Virus record (IMG/VR): IMGVR_UViG_3300025168_014602
Coordinates: 1 to 27,936 of that record
Length of the DNA: 27,936 nt
Reading direction: 5' to 3' (one strand)
Origin: a virus
Part shown: positions 3,865 through 27,702 of the stretch, one piece after another
Numbering within the stretch: position 1 is the first letter of the stretch
Layout: every line of letters begins with the position of its first letter
Position numbers and translations under genes: made by a program
The notes under the pieces: model-generated
What the model saw: the letters and a program-made list of their open reading frames with translations, nothing else
What the model was told of the DNA's origin: nothing
Database searches by the model: none

Positions 3865-5319
3865 TTATAAAACTTTTATATTGTAAAATTGTTCAAATTC
3901 CTGTGCATCCTTTTTTGTGTTAACCATTGGCTGTCCTTTAATATTTAAACTAGTATTTAATAACATTGGACAACCTGTTTTATCATAAAATAATTTTAAT
4001 AAAGCATAAAACCCCGGATTATCTTTTTTAGATACTGTTTGAACTCTACTTGTGTTATCTACATGACATATTGCAGGATATTTATCAGGATATTTACATG
4101 TTGCTGTATATTGCATATATGGAACTTTATTAATAGGCATATCAAAAATTTCATGAGCAAATTCTTCCATAATTGCTGGAGCAAATGGTCTAAATTTTTG
4201 TCTTCGTTTTATTTCGTTAACTTTATCTTTTATTTTACTACCTCGCGGATCTGCTAATAAACTTCGATTACCTAATGCCCTAGGGCCGAATTCAGCTGGA
4301 CCATTAGCTATTCCAATTATTTCTCCTTTAATTAATAAGTCGCATGCTGTTTTTACTGGATACTCGCCTTTAATGTTAGATCCTAAAAATGCAGTTTTCC
4401 ATGTTATATGTTTTCCATATATAGCAGCCGCAGCTCCTAATGAAGAACCGGCATCTCCTGGGTTTGGCATTATCCATGTATTATTATAATATTTAGGAAG
4501 TATTTTTCCATTAGCAACACAATTTAAAGCACACCCACCCATATAAACCAAACTATCTATATTAGGTAATATTTTTTTAGTATGATTAATAATTCGATCT
4601 AATATATGTTCTGTTAACGTTTGCGTGCTAGCTGCTACATCCCAATTTTTCCATTTATCACAATACGATCCTAAACCTTTATGTAAATTATAGTTTAATT
4701 TTAATAATTTAGTTGTATCAAATAAATCAGATTCTATTTGTTTCCAATGATTATCTTTACCCCACGCAGACATACCCATTAGTATATATTCTTCTTCACA
4801 TGGTTTTAAATTAATTGCCTGTGTTGCAGCTGAATAAAATAATCCAAGTGAGTGTGGATATTTTATACTATATATTTTTTTAATATTATTACCCTTACCA
4901 TGCCATATTGTTAAAACATCCCATTCTCCAATTCCATCTATTACTAATATAGCTGCTTCTTTATATGGGGAGGTATAATATCCTGCCGCTGCATGACTTA
5001 AATGGTGATCAACATATTCAATTTTATAATCTTTAAACCATTTATTTAAATAGTTTTTAGGTAAATTTTTAAGGTTAAATACTTCACTGTATTGTCCAGC
5101 ATATAGTTGTCTTGATTTTTTTATCCATGGACGCTCATAATATACTATTTTATCAGGTTTTCCATAACTCAACGCTTCATTAATTATAGCATCATTAAGA
5201 TACATATCGTTTTTAATTCTACTGTATCGTTCTGAATGAGCTGCAAATACAATATTACCATTGTCTATGACTGAAACAGCTGCATCGTGATTAAGACAAT
5301 TAATTCCTAGTATTCTCAT
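3865..5319 (-). CDS. Carbamoyltransferase, NodU/CmcH/TobZ family (copy A)
   Basis: A 484-residue O-carbamoyltransferase. Known members use carbamoyl phosphate and ATP, make a carbamoyl-adenylate in the N-terminal Kae1-like domain and pass it to a sugar hydroxyl. Seen here: NHDAAV near residue 10, DHHLSH with H105 and H109 plus D128 at the same spacing as the metal ligands of TobZ, GGCALNCVANG at 261-271, and the C-terminal YrdC-like part with GPRALGNRSLLADPRG (345-360) and MLLNTSLN. It is shorter than the more usual 540-600 residues and ends abruptly after the LNTS motif, lacking the last strand that the second copy keeps. It follows the tiny basic ORF by 4 bp and is joined without gap to the next methyltransferase. 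Confidence 0.92.
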   Translation of the reverse strand: MRILGINCLNHDAAVSVIDNGNIVFAAHSERYSRIKNDMYLNDAIINEALSYGKPDKIVYYERPWIKKSRQLYAGQYSEVFNLKNLPKNYLNKWFKDYKIEYVDHHLSHAAAGYYTSPYKEAAILVIDGIGEWDVLTIWHGKGNNIKKIYSIKYPHSLGLFYSAATQAINLKPCEEEYILMGMSAWGKDNHWKQIESDLFDTTKLLKLNYNLHKGLGSYCDKWKNWDVAASTQTLTEHILDRIINHTKKILPNIDSLVYMGGCALNCVANGKILPKYYNNTWIMPNPGDAGSSLGAAAAIYGKHITWKTAFLGSNIKGEYPVKTACDLLIKGEIIGIANGPAEFGPRALGNRSLLADPRGSKIKDKVNEIKRRQKFRPFAPAIMEEFAHEIFDMPINKVPYMQYTATCKYPDKYPAICHVDNTSRVQTVSKKDNPGFYALLKLFYDKTGCPMLLNTSLNIKGQPMVNTKKDAQEFEQFYNIKVL

Positions 5320-5434: not shown

Positions 5435-6099
5435 ATCGTTTTAAAATATTTATTAATTAACTTTAAAGCTGCCATATCCGCAGTTTTATTTGGATGGGGG
5501 TCTTTAATTATAACATTCGTTGGAGCAATTATATTCCAATAACGTCTTAAAATTGTAGTACCATTTAAAGGATTGTTTTTATGATAATATTCCCAAAATT
5601 CTTCATCTAAACATTCTTCTTCGTCTAAACCATATCCGGATTTTCCTTCATATGATAAATACAAATGTTTTAAATTATTAGATTTTAAAAAAGTTAACAT
5701 GTTATTATCTGCATCATCACTAAAATTATATGGATGCCTTAACGGATATCCACCTACATTATATAAAAAAAATACAACATTATCATGTAATTTATTTATT
5801 TCTATTATAGTTTGTTTATATTTGTTAAGTAGTTCTGTTGCCGCAGTTTCCTCTCCATTCGTTTTAATTTGTTCAATAAAATTATAAAATCTTTGTGTAG
5901 TATCGTTAGATTTTATTATATCCCTAATAGGAGTAGGAAGTTGAATTACAATACCATCATAATTGTTTAAATTTTTAGATTGTAAATAATCTTGTATATA
6001 CCAAAGGCCTCTTCCACCAAATGATGCATATTCATAATTTGTATTGTATTTATGCATTTTTTGTACCCAACTACAACCAGTAATAAGAATATTTTTCAT
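5431..6099 (-). CDS. SGNH/GDSL-like hydrolase or acyltransferase
   Basis: A 222-residue protein that begins MKNILITGCSW, with Ser10 in a GCSW block I as in many phage SGNH proteins, followed by YASFGGRG (block II-like Gly), a strand YDGIVIQLPTP, and FLYNVGG in the position of block III. The end has KDPHPNKTA with Asp200 and His202 in the place of the catalytic Asp-His pair, though the spacing is D-x-H rather than the common D-x-x-H. Such proteins usually add or remove acetyl or other acyl groups on glycans. No membrane segment is present, so a cytoplasmic role is likely. It is coupled by ATGA overlaps to both the upstream DegT aminotransferase and the downstream small basic ORF. Confidence 0.6.
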   Translation of the reverse strand: MKNILITGCSWVQKMHKYNTNYEYASFGGRGLWYIQDYLQSKNLNNYDGIVIQLPTPIRDIIKSNDTTQRFYNFIEQIKTNGEETAATELLNKYKQTIIEINKLHDNVVFFLYNVGGYPLRHPYNFSDDADNNMLTFLKSNNLKHLYLSYEGKSGYGLDEEECLDEEFWEYYHKNNPLNGTTILRRYWNIIAPTNVIIKDPHPNKTADMAALKLINKYFKTI

Positions 6100-7016
6100 A
6101 TAAATTTCTCAATTTTATTAATTACATATAATATCTGTTCATCAGTTAATTCTTCATGAAATGGAATACTAGCAGTTTGTTTTGATAGTTTCGATGAATT
6201 AGGACAATTATCTGTTAGCCAAGGACTATACACTTCGTTTTCATGTAAAGCATCATAATGAATACCACATGTAATACCTTTCCCATTCATATATTTTATA
6301 AATTTTTTGTTATCATTTACTTTTATTCTATATAAATGATCACTTGTATTATTATACCCTAACTCACTATTATAAAAGTCTCTAATTTTCTTTAATTTTC
6401 TTTTTTTATAATCTAATAACTTTAAATTTTCATTAGCAATATAACATTGAATGGAGTTCATATACATTTTATAACCTGGAAATTTAATTTTTCTATCCCA
6501 ATTATTGTGAGAATAAGACATACCGTTCATAGTTGCTTCTTTAAACCATTTAATTTTTTCTTCGTCATTGGAAACAATAATTCCTCCATCCGAGCTTCCT
6601 ATAGGTTTAGTAGGATAAAAACTAAATATCATTAAATCTGCATCATTAGCTTCTTTATTAAATTGATTCAAATCTACTTTTTGGGCTGAGTCTATAATTT
6701 TATAATCTTCAAATTCATGTAATATATAAGAATCTCCTACCCATTCAGTATCATCAGTAAAATTTATTTTATTTCCGGAGGTTAAAACTGCGTTACATAC
6801 TACTGGGGGTATCATGCTAGGAACATTTACTGTAATATTTTTGTTTAACATTGATAAAAATATTGCATTTGTAGCACTATTAACCGTGCATGAATATTTT
6901 GCACCTACATATTCTCGAAAATTATGTTCAAATTCACTAACTATGTTGCCGTGTAGATAATGTGTAAACTTACTAGTATCTACATTATAATTTGGTATGT
7001 TAAATAAATTAATCAT
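6096..7016 (-). CDS. DegT/DnrJ/EryC1/StrS-type sugar aminotransferase (short form)
   Basis: A PLP-dependent aminotransferase of the family that puts an amino group on keto-deoxy nucleotide sugars. SATNAIFLSML (48-58) is the phosphate-binding region, IIDSAQ carries the PLP-pyridine Asp109, and SFYPTKPIG carries the Schiff-base Lys137, followed by DGGIIV as in the family. HYDALHENE and SIPFHEELT near the end match the C-terminal domain. At 306 residues it is shorter than the usual 360-400, mainly by compact loops rather than an obvious break; both ends look intact. A likely substrate is a 4-keto sugar such as the product of the PseB-like enzyme at 1586-2497. It overlaps the pyruvate-kinase-like gene by 8 bp and the SGNH gene by ATGA. 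Confidence 0.85.
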   Translation of the reverse strand: MINLFNIPNYNVDTSKFTHYLHGNIVSEFEHNFREYVGAKYSCTVNSATNAIFLSMLNKNITVNVPSMIPPVVCNAVLTSGNKINFTDDTEWVGDSYILHEFEDYKIIDSAQKVDLNQFNKEANDADLMIFSFYPTKPIGSSDGGIIVSNDEEKIKWFKEATMNGMSYSHNNWDRKIKFPGYKMYMNSIQCYIANENLKLLDYKKRKLKKIRDFYNSELGYNNTSDHLYRIKVNDNKKFIKYMNGKGITCGIHYDALHENEVYSPWLTDNCPNSSKLSKQTASIPFHEELTDEQILYVINKIEKFI

Positions 7017-10607: not shown

Positions 10608-10993
10608 ATTTCTTTAAAATCACCTGGTTTTGCTCGTAATTCATCAGCAGGATTATATTTTTCTGTTAAATAATACATTAGTATCGAGCCCGGTTCTAAT
10701 GCTTTATATCCATGATATATGCCTGGTGGTATTTTTAATATTTTAGGATTTTTATCTGATAAATATTCAAATTTAGCTCCTTCTTCGTGTGTTGCTAAAC
10801 CTACCTTGAAAGATCCTTTTATACAACACCAATAATCTATTTGTATATTATGTTTGTGCCATGCTACTACATGATCTGTAGAATTAACATATGAAATATT
10901 AATTTGCCCAGGACCTAATTCTTCAAATACATTTAAATAACGCTGAGCTCTGTCATCTTCATTATATTGTATTGGGTGTAAACTATAATTCAT
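10586..10993 (-). CDS. RmlC-like cupin (sugar 3,5-epimerase family)
   Basis: A 135-residue cupin. WHKHNIQIDYWCCIKG (45-60) and KIPPGIYHGYKAL (87-99) correspond to the RHxQ/KL and VPxGxAHGF regions of dTDP-4-dehydrorhamnose 3,5-epimerase, and YYLTEKYNPADE (107-118) matches the RmlC SExYxPxxE stretch. It is shorter than RmlC (about 180) and ends soon after that point, so the activity could be single-site epimerisation or another cupin reaction. I place the start at the ATG 10991-10993, one base after the upstream stop, with AGG nine bases before it, rather than a TTG three codons earlier. It overlaps the FdtA-like gene by 22 bp. Confidence 0.72.
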   Translation of the reverse strand: MNYSLHPIQYNEDDRAQRYLNVFEELGPGQINISYVNSTDHVVAWHKHNIQIDYWCCIKGSFKVGLATHEEGAKFEYLSDKNPKILKIPPGIYHGYKALEPGSILMYYLTEKYNPADELRAKPGDFKEIWQAENK

Positions 10994-10994
10994 A

Positions 10995-12161
10995 TTATAC
11001 AACCTGAACTACCGGGACATGTGTTATAAACTTGCCACCTTGATTTAAATAGGTATTTTCTTTTTTTGTTATTTCTTTAATAAAATTCCATGCACCTAAA
11101 TAAGCATAGTCGACAGAGTCATCAAATCCATTATCTGGTGAAACAATTGGAATATGCACGCCTGGAGATAATTTTCCTTGTTTCTCTGGAGTAGTATCTG
11201 TGATATATTGTATTAAATCAGTGCCGATACCACAATAATTAAATATCGTTGTTGATTTTGAAGTAGCACCATAACTTATTACTTTTTTATTCTCTGCTTT
11301 GCATTGAGTTAATAATCTTAGCAGATCTTCTTTTGATTGTTTTACTTTTTCTGCAAATCTAACAAATGTTTCAAATTTATCTAAACCTAATATACGTTCA
11401 TATGATTTATTCTTTTCTACAGATGGATCAATTAATCCATTACCTTTTTTCATAGCATATATCCTATTAGAACCACCATGTACTGTTAGATTTTCTACTT
11501 GAATTATCTCTAATCCATTTCGTTTTAATATATTATCTAATGCAATCACTGAAAATATATGTGGATGTTCATCATATATTTGATCATATGAATTATTATT
11601 AATCATTCCTGCTAATGACGGATCTTCAAATATAAAAACACCATTATCTGTTAGTAAATTTTCTACGGCTTTAAATGTATCATCTAGATCTGGAATATGA
11701 CAAATACAATTAGCAGAAAATATAATATCTTGATATCCGTGTTTTTCTTTTATTGTATCTGACAAATCAGTAGTCCAAAAATTAGGATATGTTGTATAAC
11801 CTAAATCTTGAGTTTCTATTGCAAAGTTTTTACATGGTTCTACTGCTACAACATTTTTAGGATTCCAATTTTTTATGAAAACACCATCATTACTTCCAAT
11901 TTCTAATATTTTACAATCAGCCGGCAATGATTTGCTTAGTTGTTTAAAATGATCTCTCATAGTAGCAGACATCGAACCTCTGTATGCATAATTTTCATTA
12001 AACATTAATGGAGCGTCTACATAAAGCATTTGCGTTACTAATTTAGTTTCATCATCAAATCCTACCTGTAAATCAAAGAAGAATTCATCTTTAATTTCAC
12101 TTTTATATAGAAATCCATTTGCTATAGGCTGTTTACCTAAATCTAAAAACTGTTTTTTCAT
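10995..12161 (-). CDS. Deoxysugar C-methyltransferase (NovU/TcaB9 family) lacking the zinc-binding cysteines
   Basis: The 388-residue protein has the three-part layout of sugar C-3/C-5 methyltransferases. The N-terminal part starts FLDLGKQPIANGFL, a strongly conserved block. The SAM domain has ILEIGSNDGVF (85-95), VEPCKNFA and IFEDPSLAGM. The C-terminal domain has ISYGATSKSTTIFNYCGIG and KQGKLSPGVHIPIVSP, which are hallmarks of the Methyltransf_14 region. In known relatives such as TcaB9, two CxxC pairs around the first block bind zinc; the first 80 residues here have no cysteine at all, and the protein begins right at the block that normally follows the first pair. It should add a methyl branch to a keto-sugar. 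The start overlaps the FkbM gene stop as ATGA, after AAGGA. Confidence 0.88.
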   Translation of the reverse strand: MKKQFLDLGKQPIANGFLYKSEIKDEFFFDLQVGFDDETKLVTQMLYVDAPLMFNENYAYRGSMSATMRDHFKQLSKSLPADCKILEIGSNDGVFIKNWNPKNVVAVEPCKNFAIETQDLGYTTYPNFWTTDLSDTIKEKHGYQDIIFSANCICHIPDLDDTFKAVENLLTDNGVFIFEDPSLAGMINNNSYDQIYDEHPHIFSVIALDNILKRNGLEIIQVENLTVHGGSNRIYAMKKGNGLIDPSVEKNKSYERILGLDKFETFVRFAEKVKQSKEDLLRLLTQCKAENKKVISYGATSKSTTIFNYCGIGTDLIQYITDTTPEKQGKLSPGVHIPIVSPDNGFDDSVDYAYLGAWNFIKEITKKENTYLNQGGKFITHVPVVQVV

Positions 12162-12808
12162 TTAATTTCCTTATTTTTAAATAATATATCTTTTTGAAGA
12201 ATTACGTCGTCATCTACATGTTCTCCAATTGTAGCTATATTTTCAAAGCCAATATTTTCCATAAAATTAATAACGTCTAATTCTAAAGGAGCTCCAAGAT
12301 TATATTCAGTAACAGCTACTTCTAATATAATATATGAAGATTTTTTGCATATTCCAAGGCCGCCTTTTATTATATCTAATTCAGATCCCTGAGTATCCAT
12401 TTTTATTAAATCAAATTTAGAATTATCATCAAATAAAACATCTAATGTTTGTAGTTTTTTTGGTATTTCTAATACTAGTTGAGGAATATCCCAATATGCA
12501 GATTCTTTATAATATGATGCACCCTCTGTATGAGGTTTATCTGATCTTGTATAAAATGTTACATCTCGTTCTGAATCTCCTAGTACTGCAATAGTATATC
12601 GATCATCATTATTCATTGTTAATTGATTTAATTGGTATGAATGACAATCATTAGCTTCCAGCATCCATACAAATGAATCTGGCCATACATTTTTTACCCA
12701 ACCATAAAATTGACCGGTATGTGCTCCTATATCTAAAATTGTTTCAGGATTAAATCCTAATTTATTTTTAAGATATTCTAATTTCATTGATTCTCCTAAT
12801 CTATACAT
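12158..12808 (-). CDS. FkbM-family SAM-dependent methyltransferase
   Basis: A 216-residue FkbM methyltransferase: ILDIGAHTGQF (24-34) is motif I, VWMLEAND is the acidic second strand, and FDLIKMDTQGSELDIIKGG is the most typical FkbM signature. Such enzymes O-methylate hydroxyls in polyketides and many surface glycans. Two starts are possible: the ATG at 12806-12808 with AAGGAG six bases upstream, and an ATG at 12785-12787 (Met8) with its own AGGAG five bases upstream. I keep the first; the second would give 209 residues without loss of any motif. The gene overlaps the DUF5672 gene by 8 bp. Confidence 0.88.
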   Translation of the reverse strand: MYRLGESMKLEYLKNKLGFNPETILDIGAHTGQFYGWVKNVWPDSFVWMLEANDCHSYQLNQLTMNNDDRYTIAVLGDSERDVTFYTRSDKPHTEGASYYKESAYWDIPQLVLEIPKKLQTLDVLFDDNSKFDLIKMDTQGSELDIIKGGLGICKKSSYIILEVAVTEYNLGAPLELDVINFMENIGFENIATIGEHVDDDVILQKDILFKNKEIK

Positions 12809-13547
12809 TATATTCTCCTTGTAAATTTTTTAATACTTCAATTTCGTTACAAACTTGTTTTATTTGATCATATGCCCTACCGTGTCCTTTTGCTGGATTA
12901 ACACCCCATGGTTTATGAATTGCAAATGGTGCTTCCATATTTAATGGTGCAATATAACCACAATCTATAGAAAATGTTATAACCTGTTTAACAGTAGGAT
13001 GTTTTTCTATACACGCACTTACAAAATAGTCTTCACAAGTATTTCCTCCGCTTGCTACATATGGTTCCCATTTATTTCTTATAATATCAAGCATAAATTG
13101 TTTTTTTCTAATTGAAACTCCACCATTCATTACTACTGGGTATTGTTCATTTAAATCATATAATTTATTGCCCCAATAACCTCCAATATAATCAAAATCA
13201 AGAAAATCATCTACTTTGTATTTAGAATTTGGACATAACATGGAATCACACTCAAAATACAATATAATATCTCCATTAACCGAACTCCAAAATTGTTCAG
13301 ATAACATTATTTCACTTGAAGCTTCTTGTGTTACGCTTTCTATATTAAGATTGGTAAAACTTATTTTTTCTTTGATTGATGTTAATAAATTATTAGATTC
13401 TATAATATTATTGATATATTGTAAATTATTTAATCCGTGAAATATTTGCAAATTCCAATCAGGTGGAAGAATGGTCATAACATTATTCAAAACAAATTCT
13501 AATGCTTTGTGTTTTCTTGTTTCTACTATAACAGCTGTTTTTTTCAT
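12801..13547 (-). CDS. DUF5672-type putative glycosyltransferase
   Basis: A 248-residue protein of the DUF5672 type. VIVETRKHKALEFVLNNVM (7-25) and WNLQIFHGLNN match the conserved N-terminal region, LYFECDSMLC (96-105) is the DxD-like strand end, DYIGGYWG and MNGGVSIRKK are later conserved blocks, and GNTCEDYFVSACIEK is the acidic final motif. The order of DxD strand, Asn-Gly-Gly and Glu-Asp is that of GT-A transferases, so I read it as a glycosyltransferase of unknown donor. It ends in codons that also carry a Shine-Dalgarno for the FkbM gene. One base separates it from the carbamoyltransferase upstream. Confidence 0.75.
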   Translation of the reverse strand: MKKTAVIVETRKHKALEFVLNNVMTILPPDWNLQIFHGLNNLQYINNIIESNNLLTSIKEKISFTNLNIESVTQEASSEIMLSEQFWSSVNGDIILYFECDSMLCPNSKYKVDDFLDFDYIGGYWGNKLYDLNEQYPVVMNGGVSIRKKQFMLDIIRNKWEPYVASGGNTCEDYFVSACIEKHPTVKQVITFSIDCGYIAPLNMEAPFAIHKPWGVNPAKGHGRAYDQIKQVCNEIEVLKNLQGEYNV

Positions 13548-13548
13548 A

Positions 13549-15162
13549 TTATTTTTTACTTAATAAAATTCCATGATCTCTAAAATATAGATAATCAATA
13601 TTTGTATTTAAAAAACAATTAATTGCATGTTTTGGAGTTTCAACTATTGGCTCTCTATCATTAAAACTAGTGTTCAATAAGATTGGAACTCCTGTTTTTT
13701 CTTTAAATTTTTTGATAAAATTATAATACCACGGATTATCTTCTTGTTTGACTGTTTGTAATCTCGCTGTTCCATCATGATGTACAACAGCTGGGACTTG
13801 TTTTATTTTGTCTGGTTTAAATGGTATTGCAAAACTCATATATGGACTGTCTACATCGTTTATAAACCAATTGGTTACTTCTTCTCGCAATATAGATGGG
13901 GCAAATGGCCGGAACCATTGTCGATGTTTTACTTTTTCATTAACAATATCTTTAATTTCAGGATATCTAGGATCAGCTAAAATACTACGATTTCCTAACG
14001 CACGCTTACCAGACTCTGAACCTCCACCAAATATAGATATAATTTTTTTATCAATTATTTCATTTATAACATATTCGTCATCTACTTTGTTAATTACTAG
14101 TTTATCAGAATATTCATTAATTGTATTGTCAATTATATCTTTACTATATGTCTGTCCCAAATATGGCGTATGATTTTTAGGATTATTGTAAATTCTAGGA
14201 TTGTCATGTATATGATGCCAAATATATCTACATGAGCCAATTGTTAGACCAGCGTCATGAGGTATTGGATCACAGAAAATATTAATACCAGGAAACCAAT
14301 TTAACATTTTACCCATAGCAACACAATTTAAACTTACACCACCGGATAAACAAATATTTTCTGGTTTATATTTTTCTATGTATGGTGTTAATATATCGTA
14401 TAATACTGTTTCTGTTTCTTTTTGCAATGCAGCAGCAATATCAAATTTATTTTGTTCACTCTTATTTGCTTCTTCAGCTAAAAAATTAATATCATAAGGT
14501 CCCCAATTTTTAGTAAGACGTGCATCTTTTAAATTTCTAAAATATTTTAAATATTTATCTGGATTTCCAAATGCAGCCATCCCCATCACAGTTCCTTCTT
14601 CTCCGCGCTTTACTGGATTTCTATTTAAACCAAAAATGTGATATGTACAGGTATCCCAATATAAACCTATATTAATATTTCCGCGATCAAACATATGTAT
14701 TGGTTCTATTTTATTATCAATACCATTCCATATAGTAAAACTAGTTACAATACTACCGGGAGCTGTATGATCGTCTAAATCTTTCCATTGTACTTCTTGA
14801 CCGTTTAAAAAATCAACGCCTCCTCCGTCTATAGTTACTACTAATGCATTTTTATATGGACTAGTATAAAATGCATTGGCTGCGTGAGCTTGATGATGTC
14901 CTGAAATATACATTTTAGATTTTGGACAACGATTATTTACTTTAGATAATGAATCAGTATATTTTGTAATATTTCCAGTTCTATGAGTTGTATGATATGT
15001 AAAATCAGTCATTGTTTCGTTTTCTAAAAACAATTTAATAGAATCGCCTTTACATCCTTTTTCACGATTAAATCTTTCTAATTCATTATGAACACTAGGT
15101 AATCCGTTATCTAAAATACCATATGCTGCGTCATGTCCATTACTAAAACCTATTATTTTCAT
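13549..15162 (-). CDS. Carbamoyltransferase, NodU/CmcH/TobZ family (copy B)
   Basis: A second, full-length (537 residues) O-carbamoyltransferase. FSNGHDAAYG near residue 10, GHHQAH with His89 and His93, and Asp112 in TIDGGG reproduce the metal-site spacing of TobZ. SGGVSLNCVAMGKM, DAGLTIGSC, and in the C-terminal domain KRALGNRSILADPRYP, HRQWFRPFAPSI and ILLNTSFND complete the family set. Unlike copy A it keeps the final region (AINCFLNTNIDYLYF). The two copies share only the family motifs by eye, so they are likely to act on different sugars or positions rather than being a recent duplication. It is flanked by methyltransferase and glycosyltransferase genes with gaps of 1 to 3 bp. Confidence 0.93.
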   Translation of the reverse strand: MKIIGFSNGHDAAYGILDNGLPSVHNELERFNREKGCKGDSIKLFLENETMTDFTYHTTHRTGNITKYTDSLSKVNNRCPKSKMYISGHHQAHAANAFYTSPYKNALVVTIDGGGVDFLNGQEVQWKDLDDHTAPGSIVTSFTIWNGIDNKIEPIHMFDRGNINIGLYWDTCTYHIFGLNRNPVKRGEEGTVMGMAAFGNPDKYLKYFRNLKDARLTKNWGPYDINFLAEEANKSEQNKFDIAAALQKETETVLYDILTPYIEKYKPENICLSGGVSLNCVAMGKMLNWFPGINIFCDPIPHDAGLTIGSCRYIWHHIHDNPRIYNNPKNHTPYLGQTYSKDIIDNTINEYSDKLVINKVDDEYVINEIIDKKIISIFGGGSESGKRALGNRSILADPRYPEIKDIVNEKVKHRQWFRPFAPSILREEVTNWFINDVDSPYMSFAIPFKPDKIKQVPAVVHHDGTARLQTVKQEDNPWYYNFIKKFKEKTGVPILLNTSFNDREPIVETPKHAINCFLNTNIDYLYFRDHGILLSKK

Positions 15163-22023: not shown

Positions 22024-22922
22024 AAGTATGTTTCCCCTTTTACAAAATTATGACCTAATACTGATTGTCGCTGTACTTCATAAACATCAGAATATCTAAC
22101 TACACAATGATTAGTTCCACACTGATTTCCAATATTTATTTTAGCTTTAGATTTGATATAAAGTTGAATGCGTAAATCTATATTACGAACATCTAATACA
22201 CTATCTACAAAATCAAATCCTAATTCATTTAAAGGTTTATAAGTCCAACAAAAATACGGCATTATATTATTATTAAGTAGTTTAGATATTTTTTCATGAT
22301 CATTTTTGTATGTTTTTTCATCATGTTTACCATATTGTGTTCCAAATCTATCTGATATTAACAAACACCCAAATTCTTTTTTATTTTTAACATACTCTTT
22401 AATTATCTGATCACCTAATTGTTGTTCTTCTTTTGAAAAATATAATTCAGGCTGAGAATCTTCATATTCAGATATATCAAATTGCCAAAATTTTAATATT
22501 TGTTCTACCAATGGAATATTCGGATTATTATCGTCATATATTCTATAATGATCATGAAAAACTTCGCCTGATAATTTATCTATATAACCATCTATATATG
22601 GATTATTATTAAAAATTACTTCTACATTTTTAAAAATATTATTCCATGGATTCCAATTAGGCTGTGTCTTTATGAATAGTTCTTGTAATAATTTTGTAGA
22701 TGGTAAATATACTTTACAATTTGGATATTTTTGTTTTAATAATCTAGGCATTGCTGATAAGATTCCCCAATCACCAATACCATGGCACGTTCTCATAATT
22801 ACAAAGTTTTGTGAATCCAAATAATCATCTGGTATATACAATGCGTCAGAAGAGTCAAATCCAAGTTTTTCTACTTCTTTAACTTCGTATATATTATTAT
22901 CTATTATTCTCCAAAAAATCAT
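22020..22922 (-). CDS. GT9-like (heptosyltransferase-type) glycosyltransferase
   Basis: A 300-residue protein with a GT-B-like pattern. GIGDWGILSAMPRLLKQKYP followed by CKVYLPS (residues 48-74) resembles the first helix of ADP-heptose:LPS heptosyltransferases, where a GD pair precedes a conserved proline and a YP. In the C-terminal half there is LLISDRFGTQYGKHD where the donor phosphate is expected, and NIGNQCGTNHCVVRY as the conserved glycine/His region near the end. The pattern is weaker than for the other transferases, so other GT-B families remain possible. It is coupled by ATGA overlaps with the GT2 gene upstream and the DUF616 gene downstream. Confidence 0.58.
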   Translation of the reverse strand: MIFWRIIDNNIYEVKEVEKLGFDSSDALYIPDDYLDSQNFVIMRTCHGIGDWGILSAMPRLLKQKYPNCKVYLPSTKLLQELFIKTQPNWNPWNNIFKNVEVIFNNNPYIDGYIDKLSGEVFHDHYRIYDDNNPNIPLVEQILKFWQFDISEYEDSQPELYFSKEEQQLGDQIIKEYVKNKKEFGCLLISDRFGTQYGKHDEKTYKNDHEKISKLLNNNIMPYFCWTYKPLNELGFDFVDSVLDVRNIDLRIQLYIKSKAKINIGNQCGTNHCVVRYSDVYEVQRQSVLGHNFVKGETYL

Positions 22923-23527
22923 AGTGTATTGTAATATTCATTTTGCATTTCTTGGCGTTTAATAGTTTTTTCGTGTATTAAACACCATTCTTTATCTGTA
23001 GGTAAATGTGACATAGTTTTGTAACCTTCTAATACTTCATGTACTTTATTTTTCCATTTTATATTTGCATTATTTTTATATATTCTCCATTGATAATCAG
23101 GAAAATTTACCCAACCATTGTTATCTAATCTCCACCCCCACTGATCAATATGTTGTTGAGTAAGTCCTTTTACTGTATTAATTCTTGGAACTAATAATAC
23201 GTCTACGTCGTTTTGCTGTAAAACTTGTGGTAAAATATTAAAAATATATTCATTTGGTATTTCGTCTGCATCAATTTGGTATATATAATCGCCTGTGCAT
23301 AATGATGTCAAATAATTTTTCATTTTAGAAAAATTTCCATCAAATTTATATGGATAGAAATGAGCTCCTGTGCTTTTTATAAATTGCTCTACTTCTACAG
23401 AACCATTATTAGAATCAAATAATATTATTATTTCATCTTCATCTCGCATATTATCTAACAAAAAACTAAATAATCGTTTTAGTTCTATTAATTCATTACA
23501 TACAGTAACAGCGTAACTTATTTTCAT
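22919..23527 (-). CDS. Family 2 glycosyltransferase (compact)
   Basis: A 202-residue GT2 protein. AVTVCNELIELKRLFSFLLD (6-25) is the usual nucleotide-binding start, EIIILFDSNNGS follows, DGNFSKMKNYL is the conserved helix before the metal site, and YIYQIDADEIPNEY (81-94) has the DxD as Asp86-Ala-Asp88 with Glu89. YQWRIYKNNANIKWKNKVHE matches the RLF/H-x-x-VHE segment of GT2 enzymes of the WaaE/KdtX type, which add a sugar to an LPS core. It is short but has both conserved halves. It follows the GT4 gene by 3 bp. Confidence 0.85.
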   Translation of the reverse strand: MKISYAVTVCNELIELKRLFSFLLDNMRDEDEIIILFDSNNGSVEVEQFIKSTGAHFYPYKFDGNFSKMKNYLTSLCTGDYIYQIDADEIPNEYIFNILPQVLQQNDVDVLLVPRINTVKGLTQQHIDQWGWRLDNNGWVNFPDYQWRIYKNNANIKWKNKVHEVLEGYKTMSHLPTDKEWCLIHEKTIKRQEMQNEYYNTL

Positions 23528-23530
23528 ATT

Positions 23531-24814
23531 TTATGCTTTTTGCAGTTTAGGTAATTTTAATTTAGGTAATTCTTGTTTTGCTGACTTTAATTTAGGTAAT
23601 TGCAATTGTACTTGTTGCGGAAGACCATTGGTTTGTTCTTCAATTATATTAATAATATTATCATATATTTTTGATATTGCTTTTTTTGTAAAATTAGTCC
23701 TAACATAATATCTTTGACGTTTAGCTAATTCACTCCATTTTTTGTAATTGTTAATAACATCTTCAAACATTTTTCCAGCATATGTATAATCTACAGTAAA
23801 CCATTTAGCTTCTTTAATTAAAAATTCATTTTTAGCAGAATCATGTATGTTTGTTAATTGACCAGGTAACGCACATATAAAATCATTTTTTAGAAAATCT
23901 ACCGGGCCTGAGTAGTATGGGCATATAATAGGCTTTCCGCATGCAGCAAACTCTAATAGAGGCCGACCGAATCCTTCTGCTTTTGTAAATGATACCATTG
24001 CCTTAATCTTAGAATGATTGTATAATGCATTCATCTCTTTATTAGTTAAATCTCCATGCAAAATATAAACAGATGGTAATTTTGTGTTTGGAAACATATC
24101 TTGTATTTGATTAATTTTGTCTTCAATATCCATTCGATCTGTTATTGAATATGTAGCTCCGCTTGATTTTAATATTAAAGCTGGAGTATTTTTTTTGTTT
24201 TTAAATGTATTAAAAAAACAATGAATTAACCCTCCAATGTTTTTTCGATCTTCTCCTATAGATCCCTGTAACCAATGTCCTACACATAAAAACGCAGATG
24301 ATTCTTTTACTTCTTGATCTATTACAGAAATAGTTGTGGTAACATTTTTATTGTCATATGTCATATCATCAAAATATTCAGATACAACTTGTAAATTTGT
24401 TGTAATTGTTTTATTATGTTTTTCTGCAGTTTTTTCAAAAATTTCTTTGGTAAATGTACTAGGAACTATAGTAATTTGCATTTTATTAATATGATCAATC
24501 CATTCTACTGGACATATATCTCCTTCAGTTCCGGCTGTGACTCCAATATTATATTTTCCAATTGCTTGAAATTCAGTTGGTACTGTTATCTGAACCCAAA
24601 TATCTGGTTGAGCTTTTAATGGAAGTGGTATTATTCGTTGCATCCATTCTGGTGGTATTGGATATGTAAGTGGTGTATGACCCCATGGCATTGACAATAA
24701 TTTAATGTCCCATTCTTGAGATTTTTTCTCAAAAAGATTACTAATAACTTCTCTTGCATGATGTCCGTAGCCGCTTTGTGTGGCTACTGGTGATGATATA
24801 ACTACTGTTCGCAT
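23531..24814 (-). CDS. Family 4 glycosyltransferase with a repeated LPKLK tail
   Basis: A 427-residue GT-B enzyme. The start VVISSPVATQSGYGHHARE has the glycine loop of the acceptor domain, FLCVGHWLQGSIGEDRKNIG starts the donor domain, and SFTKAEGFGRPLLEFAACGK (275-294) is the GT4 E-x7-E motif with Glu280 and Glu288. The last 26 residues are unusual: after a normal end they read LQLPKLK, then ELPKLK, then LPKLQ, a basic repeat outside the GT fold. The upstream GT4 begins with MQLPKLR, so the two proteins share this short motif. Overlap with that upstream gene is 13 bp and AGGA precedes the ATG. Confidence 0.88.
   Translation of the reverse strand: MRTVVISSPVATQSGYGHHAREVISNLFEKKSQEWDIKLLSMPWGHTPLTYPIPPEWMQRIIPLPLKAQPDIWVQITVPTEFQAIGKYNIGVTAGTEGDICPVEWIDHINKMQITIVPSTFTKEIFEKTAEKHNKTITTNLQVVSEYFDDMTYDNKNVTTTISVIDQEVKESSAFLCVGHWLQGSIGEDRKNIGGLIHCFFNTFKNKKNTPALILKSSGATYSITDRMDIEDKINQIQDMFPNTKLPSVYILHGDLTNKEMNALYNHSKIKAMVSFTKAEGFGRPLLEFAACGKPIICPYYSGPVDFLKNDFICALPGQLTNIHDSAKNEFLIKEAKWFTVDYTYAGKMFEDVINNYKKWSELAKRQRYYVRTNFTKKAISKIYDNIINIIEEQTNGLPQQVQLQLPKLKSAKQELPKLKLPKLQKA
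23534..23610 (-). repeat. In-frame LPKLK-coding repeats at the end of the GT4 gene
   Basis: On the plus strand a 16-base string TTTAATTTAGGTAATT occurs at 23556-23571 and again at 23586-23601, a period of 30 bases or 10 codons, and a third partial copy (GTTTAGGTAATT) lies at 23545-23556. On the coding strand each copy encodes LPKLK or LPKLQ. The first 20 coding bases of the upstream GT4 gene (26291-26310) match the copy encoding LQLPKLK at 16 of 20 positions, so the motif seems to be related at DNA level too. Confidence 0.75.
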
Positions 24815-26310
24815 ACGATTCCTGTTTTTTGATATTGTTTTTTTGTAACTTTATTTAAAGTATATCTTAATCTTGGTTGTTTTGGCATTTCAAATAAATG
24901 ATTAATCATTTTTATCATTTTTTCTCCCATTTGCTTTGATGTTAATCCATTATCTAAACAAAAACTTCTGCCTTCTTGTCCGCATTCATTTCTGATATTT
25001 TGTGGCGTTTCCCACCACTGCATCATAGCAGTTGCTACATCTTCAAATTTTACTCTATCATCAAAAATATATGGTGTTGCTGGCGATCCTTGTAGTGATC
25101 TATTGCTCGGAAATACTGGAATTACCCATCGACCATGTTTTTTATACTTACCAGTATGATTTGTAGAAAATTCTCCATTAAATCTAAGCCAATTTCCAGT
25201 TTCATCTAAAAATCCACATTGATCCTGCAATCCGCCGGTTACATTATTAATAATAGGAGTTCCTGCTAACATTGATTCGGTACTACTAAGACCCCAACCT
25301 TCATTGGATGCAATATTAACAACTACATCTGCAACATTATACATTGCATTAAGTTCTGCAGAAGATAATTTACTTTCAGAAAATAATATTTTACAATTAG
25401 GTGCGATCACTTTATGTACTGCACGTATGTCTGTTCCGTTATTATCTGACGGAACGGTGTGCATTAATAATGCAACTCTTGATTGATCTTCTTTTGGTAA
25501 TTTATCTACAAATGTTTTAAATGCTAAAACTAAATCTCCTGGAGACTTTCTTCTAATATTTCTATTATTCCAAAATAATATAAAATCAACATTATTTTTC
25601 TTTTTAATATCATCGTATAACTTTATATACAACGGATCATTTTTATCTAATGGTTTAAATATATTATGATCCAATCCATGAGGAACATATCCAGTAACTA
25701 CAGTATTTGAATGTTTAAATGAATTTTTTTGTTTTGCATCGTCATAATCTATAACTTTAAAATTATTTTGTTTCAGAACCTCTCTATGAATATTATCAGA
25801 TTGCTTACTAATACCCATAATTAAATCACAACTTCCATAAAATGGAGCATTCCACATCGGATATGGTAAATCATCCCAAATAGAATAATAAATTATAGGT
25901 ATTCCAAATGTTGTTTTAACTTCATGTTCTAACGCATATAACCATGTCCAATATCTAGGATCGGTAAAATGAAAAATTGCATCTGGTTTTTCTTGATTTA
26001 ATAATGCAAATAAAACATTTCTATCTCCATATCCTGTCCATGGAACTATTTTTACAGATGCATCTAGAATTCCAGTTTGTCTTGCAACATCACTAGATAC
26101 ATCTACACCTTTTCCGTGTTCTGGATGTTTTAAAGCTGCGCCTAGCTGAACCCAATCATATTCTTTTACTGTACTAAGTATAATTTCTTTACTAATTGTA
26201 CCAATACCAGATGGCAGTCTAAAATCATCTGATAATAATAAAATTTTCTTTTTTTTGTTTTTTATTTGTGATTGATTATTATCAATTTTTCTTAATTTTG
26301 GTAGTTGCAT
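24802..26310 (-). CDS. Family 4 glycosyltransferase (first gene of the sugar locus)
   Basis: A 502-residue GT-B enzyme. The core begins at about residue 22 with KILLLSDDFRLPSGIGTISK, a GT4 acceptor-domain start with glycine loop. FILFWNNRNIRRKSPGDL (243-260) opens the donor domain, and NEGWGLSSTESMLAGTP (336-352) is the E-x7-E site with Glu337 and Glu345. A basic leader of about 20 residues (MQLPKLRK, then NKKKKK) precedes the core and shares its LPKL motif with the tail of the next gene. It is the first sugar gene after the replication-type genes, separated by a 34-bp gap with AAAGG before the ATG. Substrate unknown. Confidence 0.9.
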   Translation of the reverse strand: MQLPKLRKIDNNQSQIKNKKKKILLLSDDFRLPSGIGTISKEIILSTVKEYDWVQLGAALKHPEHGKGVDVSSDVARQTGILDASVKIVPWTGYGDRNVLFALLNQEKPDAIFHFTDPRYWTWLYALEHEVKTTFGIPIIYYSIWDDLPYPMWNAPFYGSCDLIMGISKQSDNIHREVLKQNNFKVIDYDDAKQKNSFKHSNTVVTGYVPHGLDHNIFKPLDKNDPLYIKLYDDIKKKNNVDFILFWNNRNIRRKSPGDLVLAFKTFVDKLPKEDQSRVALLMHTVPSDNNGTDIRAVHKVIAPNCKILFSESKLSSAELNAMYNVADVVVNIASNEGWGLSSTESMLAGTPIINNVTGGLQDQCGFLDETGNWLRFNGEFSTNHTGKYKKHGRWVIPVFPSNRSLQGSPATPYIFDDRVKFEDVATAMMQWWETPQNIRNECGQEGRSFCLDNGLTSKQMGEKMIKMINHLFEMPKQPRLRYTLNKVTKKQYQKTGIVCEQ

Positions 26311-26344: not shown

Positions 26345-26749
26345 TTAACCTAAAATAACTACAGGTTTTTTTAATTTCTTTATATTACTAAATGCAGTTT
26401 TTAATACTGGATCTAATGTTTCTTCATTATTCATAATAATCATATAATCACAATTCTGTGCTAATAATTTCATGCGATGATGTAATTGACTAAAATGATA
26501 TTGTTTTCCATAATATGTTTTAGGCATAGCAGAATATAGATTATATCCTGAAAATGATGGATTATATTCTTGATAATTTAATCCAAACTCTAATGTATAT
26601 TTTCTAATCATACTATTAGCCCCCTCTTTACCTCCAGCTCCTAATATAATAACAGCATCTGCAAATCGATGTTTTAATTCTGTTAATGTTTGTTGAACTT
26701 TTCTTCGATTTTGCCAATTGGTATTTCCTAATACTGCTACATGTTTCAT
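26345..26749 (-). CDS. SLOG/DUF2493-like nucleotide-binding protein
   Basis: A 134-residue Rossmann-like protein. VAVLGNTNWQNRRKV (4-18) takes the place of the GxR start of DUF2493/YspA-type SLOG proteins, DAVIILGAGGKEGANSMIRK matches the GGAxGAD block that binds a nucleotide or nucleotide-derived ligand, and LNYQEYNPSFSGYN resembles the next conserved turn. DYMIIMNNEETLD and KKPVVILG close the fold. SLOG proteins bind nucleotide second messengers or intermediates and several appear in phages without known role. I take the ATG at 26747-26749, which overlaps the nuclease TGA as ATGA, rather than an in-frame start nine codons upstream. Confidence 0.7.
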   Translation of the reverse strand: MKHVAVLGNTNWQNRRKVQQTLTELKHRFADAVIILGAGGKEGANSMIRKYTLEFGLNYQEYNPSFSGYNLYSAMPKTYYGKQYHFSQLHHRMKLLAQNCDYMIIMNNEETLDPVLKTAFSNIKKLKKPVVILG

Positions 26750-27702
26750 TCTCGAATTCTCTCTTTTTTTGGACAATTAACATCATCTGTTTTAAATGGA
26801 CACCATTTACAGTGTTTACTACCTTTGCCGGCAATTGCTAAATAAGTAGAATCTGGTTTTTTATTTCCATCTTTATCAAAACAATTAGATATAAATGTAT
26901 CTATACTTTTTTGTACTTTTTTTTGGGTAACAGTTCCAGCTGCAGGACGATGAATTTGTATTCGTTTTTGAGGAAACATTGAATTTTCAATTAACTTTCG
27001 TTTAACAATAAAAAATTCTACATCTATATTTTCTTTAGGTATCCCAAATTGTTTAGAAAAATAATTTTTATATGCAATTAATTGAGCAGATTTAATATTA
27101 TCTGCTTTTTGCCATTTATTCCAACCCATTCGGCTAGTTTTTATATCATAAATCGTTATGCTATTAGTAGGAATATGTCGTACAACTAAATCTATAAATC
27201 CATACCAAAATACATTAGGGTTATCTACAGATGCTTGAGAGCATAGTTCAACCTCTATTCCTACTAATTCATAATTTTTAGTAGAAAAATATTGAGATCG
27301 TTTTTTCTTAAACCAATCTAATATCGCAATACCATCTTCTAAATATTCTGTTAATTCATCAGGATTAGAAAAATGTTCTCCATTATTTTTTTCTACAGAC
27401 TCAATATATTCTTTACGTAAATTGTTAATTAACATAGTAGATAAATCTAATTTATCTGCTTGTTTAACTGAATCTGTATATAATACAGTTAGATAGTCTT
27501 GAAGTGTTTCATGAAATGCAGTACCAAAACTTAAATTAATTCCATAATTAAATGGAGCTAATCCGTCTATGTATGATAATTTCCATTGTTTAGGACATTT
27601 TTCATACATAGACCATTGTGAATATGATATACGTCTTGGTACTTGTGTTGCATCCCTTAAGGATAACTTATAAACTGGATTAATATAATTGCCGCTTTTC
27701 AT
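26746..27702 (-). CDS. PD-(D/E)XK nuclease, Cas4/RecB-like with Fe-S cysteines
   Basis: A 318-residue phage-type exonuclease. SYSQWSMYEKCPKQW (26-40) carries Cys36, GTAFHETLQDYL (60-71) has His64, GFIDLVV has Asp171, TIYDIKTS (183-190) is the D-x-K pair Asp186/Lys188, and QLIAYKNYF (207-215) is motif IV QxxxY. CKWCPF and NCPKKE give Cys298, Cys301 and Cys310 near the end, which with Cys36 fit a 4Fe-4S cluster as in Cas4 and AddB. It probably trims DNA ends in phage replication or recombination. It lies 36 bp after the gene at the window edge and is coupled by ATGA to the SLOG gene. The string TATAAATA lies directly before its ATG. Confidence 0.88.
   Translation of the reverse strand: MKSGNYINPVYKLSLRDATQVPRRISYSQWSMYEKCPKQWKLSYIDGLAPFNYGINLSFGTAFHETLQDYLTVLYTDSVKQADKLDLSTMLINNLRKEYIESVEKNNGEHFSNPDELTEYLEDGIAILDWFKKKRSQYFSTKNYELVGIEVELCSQASVDNPNVFWYGFIDLVVRHIPTNSITIYDIKTSRMGWNKWQKADNIKSAQLIAYKNYFSKQFGIPKENIDVEFFIVKRKLIENSMFPQKRIQIHRPAAGTVTQKKVQKSIDTFISNCFDKDGNKKPDSTYLAIAGKGSKHCKWCPFKTDDVNCPKKERIRE

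Follow-up and report, generated by a model that had tools for sequence, protein, structure and literature searches.

A conserved LPKLK peptide on the ends of neighbouring phage glycosyltransferases is a probable docking motif

Two adjacent glycosyltransferase genes share a terminal peptide

The window analyzed here is a virus record of 27,936 bases, in which a run of minus-strand genes includes two GT4-type glycosyltransferase genes (Table 1). GT4-A lies upstream of GT4-B on the same strand, with 13 bases common to both, and a GT2 glycosyltransferase gene follows. GT4-B matches Pfam PF00534 (Glycos_transf_1) with 32.7 bits (cut-off 26.4) and GT4-A matches PF20706 (GT4-conflict) with 26.9 bits (cut-off 26), while PF00534 scores 26.3 bits on GT4-A, just below its cut-off of 26.4. 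A preliminary description of this DNA had reported LPKL at the tail of one enzyme and the head of the other, and we confirm this: GT4-A begins MQLPKLRKID, and the C-terminal sequence of GT4-B (QLQLPKLKSAKQELPKLKLPKLQKA) holds three copies, at residues 406-409, 416-419, and 421-424. The 30-base repeat described for this tail holds for the first spacing between copies, but the second is 15 bases, and Tandem Repeats Finder reports a period of 15 with 3.7 copies at 23546-23601. The likeness given for head and tail, 16 of 20 bases, is exact and yet weak as a DNA match: 38 of 500 codon-shuffled tails equal it, so that the DNA match alone proves nothing.

Table 1. Features of the window and of related loci. 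Positions without a record name refer to the window.
Feature	Position	Strand	Remarks
GT2 glycosyltransferase	22919-23527	-	Pfam Glycos_transf_2; commonest downstream neighbour; without the motif
GT4-B, GT4-type glycosyltransferase	23531-24814	-	ORF, 427 aa; Pfam Glycos_transf_1; motif on C-terminal tail
GT4-B tail, residues 400-427	23534-23617	-	LPKL codons 23588-23599, 23558-23569, 23543-23554
GT4-A, GT4-type glycosyltransferase	24802-26310	-	ORF, 502 aa; Pfam GT4-conflict; head MQLPKLRKID
GT4-A head, residues 1-10	26281-26310	-	LPKL codons 26293-26304 (residues 3-6)
SLOG-like (YAcAr) gene	26345-26776	-	Upstream of GT4-A; Pfam 27.1 bits, just below cut-off 28.2
PD-(D/E)XK nuclease	26746-27702	-	Pfam; constant upstream neighbour
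Two carbamoyltransferases	3865-5319; 13549-15162	-	Sugar island
GT4-B split in two ORFs	L147:7361-9401; L387:8238-9642		Possibly an intron or insertion
Headless GT4-A, immuto-like clade	L084:14932-16374
166-aa zinc-ribbon protein	L396:922-1422		With tail
Diverged zinc-ribbon protein	L573, near 10749-10781		With tail
113/114-aa protein	L435:2292-2633; L472:1586-1930	-	ELKLPKLKKV tail
About 100-aa proteins	L158:9585-9884; L583:1255-1533 (contig of L563)		Ends LPKLKKV and LPKLKKIK
About 250-aa YLPKLAIRQEL protein	G001 12109-12873; G002 133383-134129; G003 5850-6599	-	ORFs
Protein with signal-like start	G001 155634-157589	-

The tail is a hallmark of the GT4-B family

A search of IMG/VR with the GT4-A of the window returned 236 related stretches, of which 80 loci were kept; counts from this search leave out a duplicate locus (L002), the window, and two named phages. 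Among these loci, LPKL lies within the last 45 residues of 56 of 63 complete GT4-B proteins, and all 49 distinct complete ones carry at least one LPxL-type copy. To obtain a wider sample, loci were fetched with a GT4-B alignment and with scan patterns in the fold (QSGYGHH and EGFGRPLL) rather than in the tail; this sample also took in the loci of the first search and eight genome-contig loci fetched by GT4-A. Proteins with open ends, with X, or with lengths outside 440-540 residues (GT4-A) or 390-480 residues (GT4-B) were left out of the resulting sets of 87 GT4-B and 93 GT4-A proteins and of the GT4-B alignment. All 87 distinct complete GT4-B proteins contain [LIM]Px[LIM] in their last 70 residues, and 84 of them LxLPx[LIM]. 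LPKL itself is found in 76 of the 87 tails as compared to 1.6% when tails are shuffled, and lies before the last 70 residues in no protein of the set; it is this conservation of the peptide that lifts the likeness of head and tail above chance. Identity within the family falls to about 35%, and the genome-contig members, at 35-47% identity to the window, keep the tail, which makes it a hallmark of GT4-B. The finding that would have spoken against the preliminary description, a motif missing from the orthologues of both genes, was thus not made for GT4-B, and for GT4-A it holds in some lineages only.

The comparison of copy number in related phages, which had been suggested, gave one to four motif copies per GT4-B tail: 14 of the 87 tails have a single copy, 60 have two, 11 have three, and 2 have four. 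The spacing of the copies differs between tails as well. In a thinned alignment of 135 GT4-B proteins, a set that includes loci found by the tail, every row has the proline of the first copy, and 93-96% of rows have its leucines; E or Q frequently precedes the motif, and the columns directly ahead of the motif, which belong to the last helix of GT4-B, are among the least conserved. This is the arrangement expected of a docking motif, a short conserved core in a variable stretch outside the fold. At the DNA level, the 101 tail copies of LPKL are written in 36 distinct versions. In the cultured phage immuto of Flavobacterium, GT4-B bears three motif-like copies and GT4-A none, and the Microcystis phage Mel-JY01 has a degenerate version of the motif at most. 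In two loci GT4-B is split in two ORFs after a similar WED sequence, with a gap of 0.65 kb (L147) or 0.08 kb (L387).

The copy on GT4-A has been gained or lost repeatedly

Close to the window, the head is nearly constant: LPKL lies in the first 12 residues of 75 of the 80 GT4-A proteins from the first search. The exceptions begin MALPQL (L025) or MELPAL (L027), have no such peptide (L078), or begin inside the fold (L051 and L066). In the wider sample, LPKL occurs within the first 20 residues of 52 of 93 distinct complete GT4-A proteins; with so many headless members, a copy on GT4-A is not essential. We followed the head on a tree of 69 thinned GT4-A proteins, built with near-copies dropped and the N-terminal extension left out. 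The head is present in 37 of these and absent in 32, and its state changes 10 times, at least seven times on well-supported (starred) branches.

Four headless GT4-A proteins, in which MEL or MQL adjoins the lysines before the fold (L316, L320, L323, and L331), look like products of short deletions. Those of the immuto-like clade (L084, L358, and L367) share an N-terminal pattern of approximately F.Y(L/V)(P/K)...RKKIL. L373 has a headless GT4-A of the immuto type; in its sister L348, the GT4-A has an N-terminus similar to that of L373 to which about 25 motif-bearing residues are added in front, and its head looks like a gain. Moreover, 30 bases of this head are identical to the GT4-B tail of the same genome, which looks like real and recent copying from one gene end to the other. 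Across genomes, the mean longest match between head and tail is 9.80 bases within a genome versus 9.22 when permuted (91 pairs; 3 of 2000 permutations reach the value), and the identity of the LPKL codons is 0.804 versus 0.790 (14 of 1000). The 71 GT4-A heads show 14 DNA versions and, given also the 36 versions of the tail copies, most heads and tails have long diverged at silent sites. The recombination scar proposed in the preliminary description therefore fails as a full explanation, since codons change under a conserved peptide, and survives as an origin in at least one lineage, that of L348. A trade-off between the head and the number of tail copies, which would follow from binding to a shared partner, is no more than suggestive, with p = 0.03 without correction for kinship and a median p of 0.25 when kinship is taken into account; a rule of total valency, by which a third copy on GT4-B offsets a lost head on GT4-A, is suggestive and, from independent pairs, not significant.

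Few other proteins carry the motif

A terminal match to the motif was found in none of 3714 other ORFs (≥70 aa) in loci holding GT4-A or GT4-B. A search for LPKL at protein ends, also suggested earlier, gave a divided answer in 11 long records of 63-178 kb (G001-G005, G013-G015, and G017-G019): heads and tails of the LPKLxK type occur on GT4-A and GT4-B only, whereas LPKL or looser patterns also match the ends of a few further ORFs, among them starts of the MPRLNRK type. Three of these phages encode a protein of about 250 aa with an identical YLPKLAIRQEL end, which holds LPKL and not the LPKLxK form. In an exact scan of a viral collection, 74 of 77 matches to the C-terminal form are GT4-B. The N-terminal form gave at least 113 parsed matches, with 83 GT4-A proteins among the matches listed; the other listed matches mostly start at an internal methionine of a recurrent protein, which we take to resemble a terminase, and the remainder are GT4-B tails and fragments. 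When ELKLPKL[KQ]K was sought anywhere in a protein, the 117 parsed matches comprised 103 GT4-B, 7 GT4-A, and 7 others. A scan in which the tail had one extra residue returned 33 matches: 27 GT4-B, five labelled zinc-ribbon by BLAST, and one other. The L486 match among these five is a fragment of 20 residues in which only the tail was matched.

The carriers outside the two enzymes fall into three groups. In L396, L456, and L459, the tail is found on a 166-aa zinc-ribbon protein whose gene lies between GT4-B and GT2, and in L573 on a diverged one; the GT4-A of L396 is headless. Among distinct zinc-ribbon family members from the earlier loci, only 3 of 72 have LPxL near the end. L435 and L472 encode, two genes after their major head protein (for that of L435, PHROG match with E = 1.4e-72), a 113/114-aa protein that ends in ELKLPKLKKV. 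It had no match in the phage collection and found only itself in one viral scan; phrog_12190 was rejected as its identity because the match is weak and this family also matches in control genomes. Finally, the tail is carried by two proteins of about 100 aa in other phages (in L158 and in L563), which share 44% identity over 61 residues (E = 1e-17) and lie two genes before a presumably sigma-factor-like gene, with no GT4-A or GT4-B in the stretch seen. The zinc-ribbon carriers fit the cassette, and the other two groups consist of two members each. Recurrent origin and presence on unrelated proteins, as expected of a docking motif, were thus both observed (10 changes on GT4-A; the zinc-ribbon protein and two two-member families).

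The two enzymes probably belong to a conserved glycosyltransferase core

Upstream of the GT4 pair we found the PD-(D/E)XK nuclease in 78 of 78 loci, the SLOG-like gene in 52, and a clamp-loader-like gene in 47; of 73 loci, 68 have GT2 downstream and 30 the zinc-ribbon gene, and no other downstream family is as frequent. The rest of the window encodes sugar epimerase-like, aminotransferase, carbamoyltransferase, sulfotransferase, and methyltransferase genes. From this context, GT4-A, GT4-B, and GT2 appear to form the invariant core of a glycan pathway that otherwise varies. Two carbamoyltransferases lie in the same sugar island as the sulfotransferase and an FkbM-type methyltransferase. In G001, a protein with a signal-like start has an ending that we take to resemble type IX secretion sorting domains, which hints at a Bacteroidota host.

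We modeled artificial read-through chains with AlphaFold, using row subsets that align correctly, picked by a script. The GT4-A+GT4-B chain of L077 reached a pLDDT of 79.7 and a pTM of 0.77, with residues 1-8 and 928-939 under 50, and the GT4-B+GT2 chain of L332 a pLDDT of 88.5 and a pTM of 0.73, with residues 410-430 under 50. Head and tail are thus predicted to be disordered in these orthologues (pLDDT <50), as a docking motif would be. The pTM of 0.77, obtained without PAE for two domains of similar size and with 2 of 54 rows paired, gives a hint of an interface between GT4-A and GT4-B. The head and tail in the L077 model and the tail in the L332 model are free, with no peptide docked, and neither GT4-A or GT4-B nor GT2 is supported as the receptor. 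Foldseek matches are GT-B enzymes, including the glycosyltransferase of chlorovirus NY2A (3oy2), and the closest solved sequence by profile is chlorovirus B736L (3oy2). No chain among solved structures matched the tail peptide.

A probable terminal hook for a putative common partner

The presence of the peptide, its terminal place, its conservation, its repeated gain or loss, its near-absence from other proteins of these loci, and one copying event are direct observations. Because evolution has kept the motif, moved it, and put it on other proteins, it is probably a hook by which a group of aquatic phages gathers these enzymes on one putative partner. We consider it likely that LPKLK is a terminal, multivalent, disordered short linear docking motif that tethers the core glycosyltransferases to this partner. 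Of the two ideas in the preliminary description, the docking tag is thus the better supported one, as the motif is terminal, predicted to be disordered, kept on every GT4-B examined, repeatedly gained or lost on GT4-A, and present on a third protein of the cassette in one lineage group; the partner and the binding are putative. We propose that a motif of approximately [VI][EQ]LxLPxLxK[VI] acts in one to four copies on the loose ends of the enzymes: C-terminally on every GT4-B examined, with an N-terminal copy added on GT4-A in many lineages and a further copy on the zinc-ribbon protein in one lineage group. GT4-A and GT4-B may pack as a heterodimer, to judge from the pTM without PAE; the free peptides would then engage, through more than one copy, a receptor that they share, and multivalent binding would hold the core enzymes together at the acceptor of the glycan.

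Other explanations account for parts of these data. The peptides could form a private clasp that binds GT4-A, GT4-B, or each other by strand pairing in an oligomer of the two enzymes, with no third partner; this suits the near-privacy of the motif within their loci and the hint of an interface, but head and tail are unplaced in the model, GT4-B keeps its tail where GT4-A is headless, and unrelated proteins of other phages carry the motif, and we regard such a clasp as unlikely. Leucine/lysine alternation, terminal place, and variable copy number would also be compatible with amphipathic peptides, rich in lysine, by which the enzymes are anchored on a membrane or some other anionic surface. However, the invariant proline of the thinned GT4-B alignment and the preceding E or Q suggest specific recognition rather than charge, and we find an anchor quite improbable. 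Targeting to the phage head, for packaging or action there in the manner of encapsulin cargo peptides, is suggested by the 113/114-aa carrier near the major head protein, but this is seen in two loci only and in none of the 11 long records with both enzymes, which leaves head targeting very unlikely.

Two further possibilities are disfavoured. That the peptide is a functionless chance repeat, or a mere scar at gene ends, is hardly credible: the shared bases in L348, the slight excess of head-tail similarity within genomes, and the repeated loss of the head on GT4-A would agree with it, but the persistence of the tail in all 87 GT4-B proteins under changing codons refutes it for GT4-B, and a chance repeat is rejected on the conservation across orthologues. 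We give the least credence, close to none, to recruitment to the phage sliding clamp for DNA modification, in the manner of T4 alpha-glucosyltransferase and gp45. In its favor, clamp-loader-like and DNA polymerase genes are found close to the cassette, and co-purification of the T4 enzyme with gp45 is reported in PMC13216743. A clamp motif should recur as the terminal sequence of the phage DNA polymerase, but the likely B-family polymerases of G001-G003 (assigned by motif rather than profile search) end KFFSFG(K) and not LPKL in all three records, which makes the clamp unlikely; the neighbouring genes also resemble complex glycan synthesis more than DNA glucosylation.

The docking explanation can be taken further. 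Unrelated proteins, namely both core glycosyltransferases, their zinc-ribbon partner, the protein beside the major head protein, and the protein of about 100 aa of other phages, might all be brought to one place by LPKLK, acting as a transferable phage hook that is read by a single putative receptor, possibly one of the host, with the peptide being copied between gene ends; we put this forward tentatively, as possible but rather doubtful. Mimicry of a host peptide received no support from 196 genomes of one order, which may not be that of the host: the DNA pattern occurred in three genomes versus two with a control, and the peptide was in no ORF of ≥40 aa at the three places. Our searches of the open-licence literature turned up no description of an LPKLK motif. 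Phage gene islands for sugar building are large, and their product and acceptor are mostly not known; a conserved peptide on the core enzymes offers a handle for naming the partner, and thus the acceptor or the site of the glycan. If the docking explanation is true, this would be a clear case in a prokaryotic virus of a motif hopping between neighbouring genes, with the copying caught in one genome.

Comparison with known systems

Encapsulin cargo peptides, which bind the inside of an HK97-fold shell, the encapsulation peptides of microcompartments, and bacterial clamp-binding motifs are short, terminal, flexible, sometimes repeated, and transferable between unrelated proteins. LPKLK shares with them its length, terminal place, predicted flexibility, occasional repetition, and presence on unrelated proteins, but has another consensus and sits at opposite termini of two neighbouring enzymes, N-terminal on GT4-A and C-terminal on GT4-B. 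GT4-A and GT4-B resemble chlorovirus B736L (3oy2) and GT4-type enzymes in their GT-B fold by Foldseek and in their GT4-type Pfam matches, and differ from them in the head and tail outside the fold. T4 alpha-glucosyltransferase binds the gp45 sliding clamp, according to PMC13216743, which cites Sommer et al., 2004. The parallel lies in a phage sugar transferase reported to be recruited to a platform protein, in a phage with a pair of glycosyltransferases; the T4 enzymes belong to other glycosyltransferase families and act on DNA, and the likely polymerases of the phages studied here have a different C-terminal sequence from that of the enzymes that carry LPKLK.
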